DNA from: Muribaculaceae bacterium
GTDB taxonomy: Bacteria; Bacteroidota; Bacteroidia; Bacteroidales; Muribaculaceae
Length of the DNA: 63,664 nt
NCBI GenBank assembly: GCA_017619355.1
Contig: JAFZSO010000021.1
Location: forward strand, 1-63,664
Direction of reading: 5' to 3'
Part shown: one piece after another, positions 30,409 through 47,613 of the stretch
Numbering within the stretch: position 1 is the stretch's first letter
Layout: every line of letters starts with the position of its first letter
The notes under the pieces: generated by a model
The model's database searches: none
Told to the model about the DNA's origin: nothing
Seen by the model: the letters and a program-made list of their open reading frames with translations, nothing else
Translations under genes and position numbers: made by a program

Positions 30409-30945
30409 ATGGGCGTTATTTTTTTAATAGGAATGGCAGGCTGCGGCAAGACCACACTGGGCCGTGCACTCGCCGACGAGATGGACATGCCGTTTATTGA
30501 CCTCGACGAGTATATCGAGGAGCGATGCGAGGCGACCATCGGCCAGATTTTTGAGCAAGCAGGTGAACAGGCTTTCCGCGAAATCGAGCGTCAGGCGCTC
30601 CAGGAAGTAGCGGCCATGGATGGCGCCATCGTGGCGTGCGGTGGCGGCACACCTTGCCAGCATGGAAACATGGAACTCATCAACCAGAACGGATTGAGTA
30701 TCTGGCTCACCACCAGCGCCCAACGCATCACCGAACGCCTGTGCCTGCCGCAGGAAAAAGCCAAACGCCCTGCCATCGCTCACATGACCGATGCCGAGGT
30801 GCTTGATTTCGTCACCCATCAACTGGCAGAGCGCCAACCCTTCTACGAGCAGGCCATGCTGCGCTTCGACTCCACCCGCCTCGAGTCGATTGAGGAAATC
30901 AACACCACCGCCCGTGCCCTCGCCACCCTCCTCGCCACCCTATAA
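30409..30945 (+). CDS. aroK: Shikimate kinase
   Basis: 178 residues. Phosphorylates shikimate at C3 in aromatic amino-acid synthesis. Walker A GMAGCGKTTLG (residues 7-17), shikimate-binding FIDLDEYIE with the Asp pair, the FREIER motif, and GGGTP in VACGGGTPCQ; the LID arginine region is QEKAKRPAIA. Normal length for AroK. Followed by the repeat array, not by another biosynthetic gene. Confidence 0.93.
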   Translation: MGVIFLIGMAGCGKTTLGRALADEMDMPFIDLDEYIEERCEATIGQIFEQAGEQAFREIERQALQEVAAMDGAIVACGGGTPCQHGNMELINQNGLSIWLTTSAQRITERLCLPQEKAKRPAIAHMTDAEVLDFVTHQLAERQPFYEQAMLRFDSTRLESIEEINTTARALATLLATL

Positions 30946-30959
30946 ATTCACTCAATTTG

Positions 30960-31290
30960 GGAAAAAGTGTATTTTTTAGCACCTCAAAACTCGGAAAAAG
31001 TGTATTTTTGGGCACCTTAAAATTCGGAAAAAGTGAGTGATTTGGGTAAAAAAATCGCAAAGTTCCCCTAGAAAAGTGTAACGATTGCCCAAAAGTTCCC
31101 CTAGAAAAGTGTAATATTTCCGCAAAAGTTCCCCTAGAAAAGTGGCAAAAACTTTTGCAAGCCCCCCAAAAAATTGGAGGATTTTATTTTTACCCTGGAT
31201 TTTGGCAAGTTTTTAAAGATTTTTACCTTGGATTTTAGCAAATTTTTGAAGATTTTTACCTTGGATTTCAACATTTTTTATAATTTTGCA
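30960..31290 (+). repeat. 33-bp-period tandem array of three successive sequence families
   Basis: Ten periods of exactly 33 bp fill the gap between aroK and the AAA ATPase gene. Units at 30960, 30993 and 31026 begin GGAAAAAGTG (family A, the third only half conserved). Units at 31059, 31092 and 31125 contain AAAGTTCCCCTAGAAAAGTG (family B). 31158-31190 is unmatched. Units at 31191, 31224 and 31257 contain TACCYTGGATTT, with TTTTTA before it (family C). A and B share GAAAA(A)GTG. All three families are in one 33-bp register, and the array ends inside the ATPase promoter. Confidence 0.85.
31261..31288 (+). promoter_or_regulatory. Promoter of the AAA_14 ATPase gene, overlapping the last repeat unit
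   Basis: TAATTTTG at 31281-31288 is the -7 element. The nearest TTG (31261-31263) is 17 nt upstream and belongs to the third family-C repeat. The leader to the ATG at 31317 is about 22 nt. Confidence 0.5.
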
Positions 31291-31316
31291 TCTGTAAATC
31301 AAGAAACGAACTAACA

Positions 31317-32660
31317 ATGACGTATTATAGCCGACATATTGACACAACATTGATTGAGTGGAAAAACTCTCCTAGACGTAAACCACTTTTGATACGGGGT
31401 GCCCGACAAGTGGGCAAATCTACAGCTGTACGCCAACTGGGTAAAACATTCCATTACTTTGTAGAGATCAATTTGGAAAAACAACGCGACTTGAGCCAGT
31501 TTTTTACTGACAATATAGATGTTAAGCGTACTTGCGAGAAGCTAAGTGGAACTCTCTCTATTCCTATTATCCCTGGAGAAACCTTACTATTCATCGATGA
31601 GATACAAGTATGTAAACCTGCACTCATGGCATTACGCTATTTCAAAGAGGACTACCCTGAATTGCATGTTATCGCTGCAGGTTCATTGCTTGAGTTCACA
31701 CTACAAGATCTCCCCTCTTTTGCAGTGGGCCGTATCCGCTCAATCTATATGTATCCTTTCTCGTTCGATGAATTTCTCCTGGCACAAGGACTTGACTTAA
31801 TGGTGGACTTCAAGAAACGAGCTACAAGCAATGAACCTTTGCCCGCAAAAGCACATGCCGACCTGGTTGACCAGCTACGATCATTTTATCTGGTCGGAGG
31901 TATGCCTTCTGCTGTAACTGAATGGGTTGAGACACATAATTATTTAGATGTAGCACATATTCATCACGATATAATAGATACCTATCAAGACGATTTTGCA
32001 AAATATAAAAAGCGGATTTCTCCAGTATTGTTACGTCAAATTCTGCGCTCTGTAGCTTTACAAGCTGGTGAGAAATTCACTTTTTCGGCTGCTGCTAAAG
32101 ATGTACGTTCCTATGTAATAAAAGAAACTCTAGAATTGTTGGTACAGGCTGGTTTGGTAATACCTGTGACACACTCAGATGGAACAGGTGTTCCACTTGG
32201 TGCCGAACAGAACAACAGTTTCATAAAGTACCTCTTTTTTGACCTTGGTGTAATGCAAACCATGCTTAATATCCCTGCATCTGACATTTTACTTGCATCA
32301 GAGGTGGATTTAGTTAATAAAGGTGCTATTTCCGAAATGTTTGCTGGGCTCGAGATGGTCAAGTATCAAGACTGTTACATTAAAGCGGAGATGTATTACT
32401 GGCAAAATATGACTCGCAATAGTAGTGCCGAGGTTGACTACCTAATAGTTAGGGAAGGCAAAGTGTTGCCAGTGGAAGTTAAAGCCAGCACACAAGGAAG
32501 CATGCCAAGTTTGTGGATGTTTATGCGTAAACGGCATTTGCATAAAGCCATCAGAACTTCGCTCGAAAACTTCGGACAGTTTGACTATTGCGACCACGAA
32601 GAGCCAACCGAAATCCGACATGTTGATGTTGTTCCGCTCTATGCACTGAGTAATTTTTAA
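31317..32660 (+). CDS. AAA_14/DUF4143 ATPase
   Basis: 447 residues. N-terminal AAA_14 ATPase: Walker A GARQVGKST (28-36), Walker B LLFIDEIQ (about 92-99), sensor-like AAGSLLEF. A C-terminal DUF4143 domain begins near 200 and includes a late VDYLIVREGKVLPVEVKAS segment that resembles a PD-(D/E)XK nuclease strand pair (D...E-x-K). Such proteins are abundant, variable and often horizontally acquired in Bacteroidales; function is unknown, with defence or toxin-like roles suggested by association only. Composition is A+T-richer than aroK and the LRR gene, and it stands alone, preceded by the 33-bp repeat array. Confidence 0.85.
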   Translation: MTYYSRHIDTTLIEWKNSPRRKPLLIRGARQVGKSTAVRQLGKTFHYFVEINLEKQRDLSQFFTDNIDVKRTCEKLSGTLSIPIIPGETLLFIDEIQVCKPALMALRYFKEDYPELHVIAAGSLLEFTLQDLPSFAVGRIRSIYMYPFSFDEFLLAQGLDLMVDFKKRATSNEPLPAKAHADLVDQLRSFYLVGGMPSAVTEWVETHNYLDVAHIHHDIIDTYQDDFAKYKKRISPVLLRQILRSVALQAGEKFTFSAAAKDVRSYVIKETLELLVQAGLVIPVTHSDGTGVPLGAEQNNSFIKYLFFDLGVMQTMLNIPASDILLASEVDLVNKGAISEMFAGLEMVKYQDCYIKAEMYYWQNMTRNSSAEVDYLIVREGKVLPVEVKASTQGSMPSLWMFMRKRHLHKAIRTSLENFGQFDYCDHEEPTEIRHVDVVPLYALSNF

Positions 32661-46917: not shown

Positions 46918-47613
46918 ATGGCAACTGGCTTTGAACAAAGAAAATCACCCAGGGCTTTCTGGCACGACTATGCTGGAGGACTCTATTTCGTGACTGTCGT
47001 CACACACGAAAGGAGACATTTCTTTGGACAAATCAGCAACGATGAAATGCACCTCAACACTCTGGGCTCATTTCTCGACCAGCAGATGCTCGACATCACC
47101 TCGCATTATCACTATGCGCAAGCCATCAAACATGTTGTCATGCCCAACCATCTCCATTGCATTCTTTATATCAATCAAGAATCGCTACCTCACGATAGGA
47201 GACAAACCATTGATGCCAAGCGCTTCGATAGTCCTGCCGATTTCGCTCGACACAACATAGGGTGGCTTTCGGTAATTGTTGGTGGCCTCAAATCGAGTGT
47301 AACGAAATTTGCTCACCAGAGCATGCCTCAATTCAAATGGCAGAGTCGATACCACGACCGCATCATTCGCAACAGGGACGAATTTCTGAAAATCTCTGAT
47401 TACATCGACAATAATGTCTTTAGTTGGAATCAAGATTGTTTTTACGACACCCCCGCGGCAACAATTGTAGGGACAGGGCGTGCCCTGTCCGGAAACCCCG
47501 CGACGACAATAACGACCGTAGGGAAAGGGCGTGCCCTGTCCGAAAACCCCGCGACGACGATAATTGCGGACAAGGCACGCCTTGTCCCTACAAATCAACC
47601 AATCAGAACATAA
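46918..47613 (+). CDS. REP-associated tyrosine transposase (RAYT, Y1_Tnp/IS200-like)
   Basis: 231 residues. HUH-nuclease signature H78-L-H80 in VVMPNHLHCIL; probable catalytic tyrosine Y145 in WQSRYHDRIIR, followed by the usual helix DEFLKISDYIDNN. The catalytic domain is complete to about residue 180. The last ~48 residues (from VGTGRALSGN) are encoded by three REP palindromes and spacers, giving the repeated peptides GTGRALS and GKGRALS. This places REP elements, the presumed DNA substrate, inside the gene. No IS-type ends flank it. Likely single-strand cutting and spreading of REPs. Confidence 0.88.
   Translation: MATGFEQRKSPRAFWHDYAGGLYFVTVVTHERRHFFGQISNDEMHLNTLGSFLDQQMLDITSHYHYAQAIKHVVMPNHLHCILYINQESLPHDRRQTIDAKRFDSPADFARHNIGWLSVIVGGLKSSVTKFAHQSMPQFKWQSRYHDRIIRNRDEFLKISDYIDNNVFSWNQDCFYDTPAATIVGTGRALSGNPATTITTVGKGRALSENPATTIIADKARLVPTNQPIRT
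47467..47587. repeat. Three REP palindromes inside the transposase 3' end
   Basis: GGACAGGGCGTGCCCTGTCC (47471-47490), the variant GGAAAGGGCGTGCCCTGTCC (47522-47541) and GGACAAGGCACGCCTTGTCC (47568-47587). The first two, preceded by GTA, lie in a 51-bp tandem unit (47467-47517, 47518-47568) with CCCCGCGACGACRATAA spacers; the third is in the opposite orientation, followed by CTACA. The 51-bp period keeps the reading frame open. Confidence 0.85.

Follow-up and report, generated by a model that had tools for sequence, protein, structure and literature searches.

Tandem repeats with a near-fixed 33-bp spacing precede AAA_14/DUF4143 ATPase genes of the PDC-S01 family and may act as their operators

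Background

Several described systems resemble in part the locus analysed here. C proteins, BrxR and CapW act at sites that overlap the promoter of a defence gene; they are separate small regulators that usually recognise one or two palindromes, whereas in the present case a tandem array seems to be bound by the effector. Replication iterons and the ParR/TubR centromere arrays also consist of direct repeats in a fixed helical phase with a lineage-specific sequence, but the repeats described below lie in front of a lone ATPase gene, in its promoter region, and a scan of four genes at the locus gave no replication or partition match. CRISPR-like arrays share with the locus short repeats and variable spacers; in contrast, the repeats studied here have a core of about 20 bp and a period of 32 or 33 bp and, in the clade of the ATPase of interest, lie upstream of the promoter, a position that argues against a CRISPR-like array.

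The gene product itself resembles the PADLOC PDC-S01 candidate defence ATPases, its best three matches to their sub-models having E-values of 6e-137 (PDLC04786), 3e-128 and 8e-78. PDC-S01 is reported to rank fourth in frequency among the defence families of prokaryotes, validation being pending for most such defence candidates (PMC12988326), and a rumen survey reports it as its most frequent individual locus (PMC13356809). It is a widespread candidate family of antiviral defence. The passages on PDC-S01 consulted in both papers mention no cis array, DNA target or mechanism (PMC12988326, PMC13356809), and a search of titles, abstracts and text passages in a mainly open-access literature turned up no description of these arrays.

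We analysed the whole 63,664-nucleotide stretch of contig JAFZSO010000021.1 (assembly GCA_017619355.1, Muribaculaceae bacterium), hereafter called the window, in which a preliminary description had noticed three families of tandem repeats in front of an AAA_14/DUF4143 ATPase gene and had proposed that they form a protein-binding array.

Results

Tandem repeats in the window

Three arrays, A, B and C, are placed between a shikimate kinase gene, the stop of which is at 30945, and the ATPase gene (Table 1). The 33-bp period claimed for each family proved to be real: in the TRF list of the whole 63.7-kb window, period 33 was given by arrays A, B and C alone, and identity of at least 17 of 18 bases at lag 33 was found at 31 positions, all within 30958-31220. 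Among lags of 20 to 99, lag 33 had the largest number of positions at this identity (31), followed by 93 (28), 51 (27), 96 (14) and 47 (11). The third units are partial, that of A matching the first 10 bases, that of B the first 20 and that of C roughly the first half.

Table 1. Features of the region between the shikimate kinase gene and the end of the ATPase gene
Feature	Position	Strand	Description
Array A	30960..31035	+	TRF period 33, 2.3 copies; core GGAAAAAGTG; orphan here
Array B	31059..31144	+	TRF period 33, 2.6 copies; core GTTCCCCTAGAAAAGTG, three identical cores; orphan here
Array C	31186..31268	+	TRF period 33, 2.5 copies; core TTTTACCTTGGATTTTAGC
-7 promoter box match	31281-31288	+	TAATTTTG; 36 bp before ATG, last C core just upstream
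AAA_14/DUF4143 ATPase	31317..32660	+	447 aa; PADLOC PDC-S01 match

The single register that had been assigned to the three families together did not hold, since the phase between families depends on the unit start that is chosen. Measured by the word common to A and B, the step from one to the other is 44 bp (word start) or 43 bp (word end), not 33, and array C has no word in common with A or B, so that no phase can be defined for it. The signal is carried by the 33-bp period within each family and not by a cross-family register.

Elsewhere in the window (47467-47563) there is a 51-bp tandem repeat with GGGCGTGCCCTGTCC, and a similar element is found at the kinase locus of genome G012 (L133), immediately ahead of a transposase-like ORF; they are possibly REP/RAYT-like.

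The ATPase and its motifs

The protein encoded downstream of the arrays matched the AAA_14 (1.1e-25) and DUF4143 (3.9e-26) profiles, while a search of NCBIfam with it gave nothing at cut-off and a PDB sequence search gave no credible match. Residues K34, D94 and E95 (Walker-type) and E372, D374, E387 and K389 (PD-(D/E)XK-type) were invariant in 63 of 63 aligned homologues. By these motif residues and its presumed clan membership, the window ATPase is a predicted PD-(D/E)XK-type nuclease. A winged helix, which we presume to lie in the first half of DUF4143, was hinted at solely by a TrmB match below threshold (E 0.15) in one homologue.

Recurrence of the spacing in the gene family

The genome of the window has eight DUF4143 genes, and TRF found an array of period 32-34 at the 5' end of seven of them, that of the window included; one such array overlaps the predicted start of its gene (L017), another has 1.9 copies (L015), and in the eighth gene (L020) TRF found no array. 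A first set of relatives, consisting of 80 found by their protein, the window and seven own-genome copies, gave 85 upstream regions that were long enough, 74 of them non-redundant, which were tested against dinucleotide shuffles with a per-sequence threshold. Lag 33 passed in 47 of the 74, lag 66 in 21, lag 51 in 18, lags 52 and 84 in 10 each, lag 85 in 9 and lag 19 in 8, every other lag passing in 4 at most; in the downstream control, lag 33 passed in 1 of 67.

A larger set comprised 121 non-redundant relatives chosen by protein only, mostly from Bacteroidales and the genus of the window. Repeats at 32-34, 51/52, 64-66 or 84/85 bp were found at most 200 bp upstream of 98 of these 121 genes, as against 8 of 170 intergenic upstream regions of other genes in the same loci, so the recurrence 5' of AAA_14/DUF4143 genes that had been anticipated was borne out. 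Lag 32-34 alone was present in 88 of the 121 and in 5 of the 170 controls, and 23 relatives had no register lag. An earlier count of 55/66 took in loci picked by their arrays and is not usable as a rate.

The same spacing law is obeyed by five spirochaete loci (L093-L097). An ATPase locus on a Criblamydia plasmid showed lag 32 (p 0.049), one on a gut phage contig showed lag 33, and four of seven viral-contig ATPase loci showed lag 33 and/or 66. Three viral-contig ATPases that are 35-36% identical to the window protein (L305-L307) have repeats at lag 33 or 66 whose cores closely resemble the C core of the window.

Unit sequences differ widely among relatives, and the spacing hardly changes between ATPase clades: the 33-bp register belongs to the gene family. 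Free variation of the unit spacing in relatives, which would have spoken against a protein-binding array, was not seen; the spacing is near-fixed, and what varies is the number of units, from 2 to 7 among B loci. Recurrence, unit-number variation, near-fixed spacing and the promoter placement described below all agree with the protein-binding array that had been proposed, in which binding itself is predicted from sequence.

A different reading of the 33-bp period, as decayed coding repeats of 11 codons, draws on frame 0, which reads KVPLEKCN repeats. It is ruled out, and we give it practically no credence, because relatives have an 18/19-bp second step in 33-18/19-33 arrangements and, in some clades, a period of 32, and these spacings, together with those of 51/52 bp, break any frame; stops, moreover, occur in all three frames.

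Array types and ATPase clades

We compared 101 genomes of the genus of the window, the A and C loci being fetched by DNA similarity to the arrays. Among the matches listed, an ATPase follows the A-type array in 7 of 10 loci and the C-type array in 4 of 10, the other 3 and 6, respectively, being orphan. Elsewhere in the genus the A-type arrays stand before DUF4143 ATPases of mostly 438 aa; C-type arrays are found before the closest relatives of the window ATPase, and B-type arrays before another ATPase clade, of 433 aa from the likely ATG. Identity among the A, B and C ATPases is only 25-31%, and the spacing law applies to all three clades.

When a two-unit B pattern was searched with three mismatches allowed, arrays were found in 23 genomes, 19 of which were of the CCCCTAG type counting near matches. 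A B-clade ATPase at >80% identity was present in 10 genomes, and in 10/10 the array was directly before it. Shortening is not evident in eight of the ten frames; those of G052 (408 aa) and G071 (367 aa) fall below the 433 aa of the others checked. A pattern search found C arrays in 11 of the 101 genomes, and a protein search found relatives of the C ATPase (at least 69% identity) in 7 of the 101. The window holds the array types of three ATPase clades but the gene of C only.

That another host DNA-binding protein binds the arrays and regulates these genes would be consistent with the related AAAA(G/A)TG cores that recur in several ATPase clades of the same genus. We hold this to be improbable: the core type tracks the ATPase clade and not the host, several core types being present within the genome of the window, GGTGCC cores occur in Bacteroidales and spirochaetes alike, and the covariation reported below is with residues of the ATPase, in one clade.

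Position of the arrays relative to the promoter

The description of the array as ending in the ATPase promoter was supported by the promoter-like site that follows array C (Table 1), judged by TAnnTTTG, the Bacteroidales -7 promoter consensus. Of 78 loci, 67 have a TAnnTTTG box no more than 75 bp from the start. When the loci were aligned on this box, the share of loci with an identical base 33 bp further upstream was 0.46 to 0.90 at positions -28 to -10 and 0.27 to 0.46 at positions -45 to -29, and the T run of the -7 box itself also matched 33 bp upstream. The core of about 20 bp lies, in the clade of the window, at about -29 to -10 from TAnnTTTG, over the -33 region, and ends some 10 bp before the box; sites that overlap the promoter at a fixed phase, as expected of an operator, are thus present in this clade. 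Exceptions were four loci (L049, L057, L067 and L076) with the last core on or after the -7 box, and several A-clade loci have further cores downstream of it. Because the core lies over the promoter, and some cores on or after the -7 box, repression is favoured over activation; an activator role fits the array position less well than a repressor role does.

The same placement bears on the idea of an array transcribed as a guide-like or structured RNA. The repeat with its variable 13-14-bp spacer might be likened to a minimal repeat-spacer array, but in most loci of the window's clade the array is upstream of the -7 box of the gene, and Rfam gave 0 matches at 30900-31400, a result on which a known structured RNA was also rejected; we consider such an RNA array very improbable.

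Covariation between the ATPase and the core

Covariation was examined in 43 Bacteroidales pairs of protein and core, the cores being read by hand; five spirochaete rows were dropped because an earlier ranking had been shaped by them. The residues that tracked the core beyond overall identity were 368 (t 29.1), 264 (16.7), 376 (12.7) and 266 (12.1), the null having a maximum of 8.2 at the 95% level and 12.1 as the highest of 200. Residues 264, 266 and 368 all fall within DUF4143 as delimited by Pfam (224-391); 264 and 266 are in a stretch that is among the most variable, and 368 is near the nuclease-type D374.

The TTTT-GGA core class arose twice, according to a tree without the covarying columns (one clade rejected, AU p 0.0016), and H264 changed exactly twice, each time with the TTTT-GGA core. 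S266 and G368 accompany this core on a second tree, and G368 is also found with other cores (L046, L053 and five spirochaetes). Counted as independent pairs, the two co-switches are too few to reach significance in a sign test. The covariation was not reproduced with 25 pairs of the B-like clade, in which 264 is invariant and, among 423 columns, 266 ranks 21st and 368 ranks 28th, the top columns being scattered. A match between the site and its putative regulator was seen in the C-like clade and was not repeated in the B-like clade (25 pairs).

Orphan arrays and gene loss

Repeats without ATPase genes, which had been named as a sign against the association, were encountered in part: B arrays lack an ATPase in 9 of 19 genomes, that of the window among them, and the orphan B array of G007 is the direct leftover of a gene deletion. 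A search of the nine orphan-bearing genomes, several of them incomplete, found no B ATPase at >80% identity in any, on which ground a B regulon acting in trans was rejected.

One tRNA-Leu site carries the array and the gene in G068 and G055 and the array alone in G007, G033, G050 and G062; the array is alone in G006 too, where only the 3' end of the tRNA-Leu is left. Behind the array and the -7 box, G007 has 13 codons matching the ATPase start, then other sequence and a stop. At the locus orthologous to that of the window, the kinase gene of G092 is directly followed by the final 35 codons of an ATPase resembling the C clade; G063 retains repeats of type A but no ATPase, and G012 lacks both array and ATPase. 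Loss of the gene with part of it left behind is directly observed in relatives, as a 5' stub (G007) and a 3' remnant (G092), and we infer that arrays A and B of the window are the leftovers of two ATPases lost at the same site.

A scan of 40 loci for tRNA genes found six with tRNA-Leu and two with tRNA-Lys, all of them B-array loci. Insertion targeted to tRNA was rejected: as one tRNA-Leu site is common to loci that have the gene and loci that lack it, the pattern looks like descent plus loss.

An ORF of about 58 codons is kept directly behind the orphan B arrays of G006, G062 and G050 (L158, L159, L160), and one orphan A array (L142) reaches almost to the start of a gene for a HAD-like hydrolase, a family judged by eye. 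In G022 and G009 (L164, L168) an orphan C array, together with a TAnnTTTG-like box, stands before a non-ATPase gene that is similar in the two genomes.

In G009 a C array and a C ATPase occur in one genome but apart from each other, and G001 is perhaps a second case; since this array is apart from its own ATPase, C arrays may control other genes, or have a wider regulatory role.

Arrays without genes are also what would be left if the arrays were targets or docking sites of the nuclease (a leash, a landing site or a site of self-cleavage), the promoter overlap being secondary and the site surviving gene loss as after excision or homing. The conservation of the PD-(D/E)XK-type residues E372, D374 and E387-x-K389 in 63/63 homologues would suit such a role, as would the vicinity of the best core-tracking column, 368, to D374. 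Set against this, the core is nearly fixed relative to the -7 box in the window's clade, a fixity that a mere target does not need, the losses in G007 and G092 resemble ordinary deletions, and an exact two-unit B or C pattern had 0 matches in viral contigs, which also led us to reject decoy arrays on viruses. Sites that serve the nuclease primarily as targets are, in our judgement, unlikely.

Inverted repeats in other PDC-S01 subfamilies

Twenty-eight usable DUF4143 proteins, many of 370-410 aa, were fetched across the phylum; the four that were tested had PADLOC sub-models 04789 or 04790 as their best match. Arrays were mostly absent from these other subfamilies, lag 32-34 passing in 6 of 28. 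A significant inverted repeat at the gene start was found in 13 of the 28, compared with 2 of 37 control genes and 1 among the first 60 of the 78 array-clade loci. It thus seems that PDC-S01 genes more widely have a site at their start, which takes one of two forms. Other DUF4143 genes (L172-L200) have palindromes at the start codon; TTGAGTAAATTTACTCAA, for example, is found in several genomes.

Discussion

The best reading of these results, and one that we hold to be rather probable, is that the repeats form an operator array by which the ATPase-nuclease regulates the promoter of its own gene; judging from the sequence comparisons, the row of repeats before the gene is probably the place where the ATPase binds its own gene. 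Binding, its cooperativity, the repression and the trigger for release would then work as follows. Each array would be the operator of its own ATPase gene, the core of about 20 bp being read by one protomer, or a dimer, of the PDC-S01 ATPase-nuclease. As the copies are 32 or 33 bp apart (about three helical turns), molecules bound to neighbouring copies would touch along more or less the same DNA face and, acting cooperatively, would cover the promoter, at which the last core is placed. Synthesis of the protein would in this way be kept low by the protein itself until something, such as invading DNA or a change of nucleotide state, draws it off. As new clades arise, the core and the residues that read it would change and the spacing would stay, fixed by protein-protein contact; arrays A and B of the window would be what remains of two such systems after the loss of their ATPases.

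More tentatively, and as a possibility that we rate well below the operator reading, PDC-S01 effectors may be their own repressors, which would polymerise on the phased array while the winged helix and a loop of the nuclease read the core. The array would then be a leash, from which invading DNA frees the enzyme, switching on both the nuclease and the gene; protein contacts would keep the spacing frozen while the core drifts, and other subfamilies would use a palindrome instead.

A cognate DNA site before most genes of the sampled branch would provide binding assays, structural work and reporters for this family with a defined ligand, and the natural series of core and protein pairs would make the specificity readable. 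The array would also serve as a sequence mark for finding lost copies of the ATPase. If the leash reading is true, it would explain how a nuclease-ATPase is kept safe in the cell that carries it.
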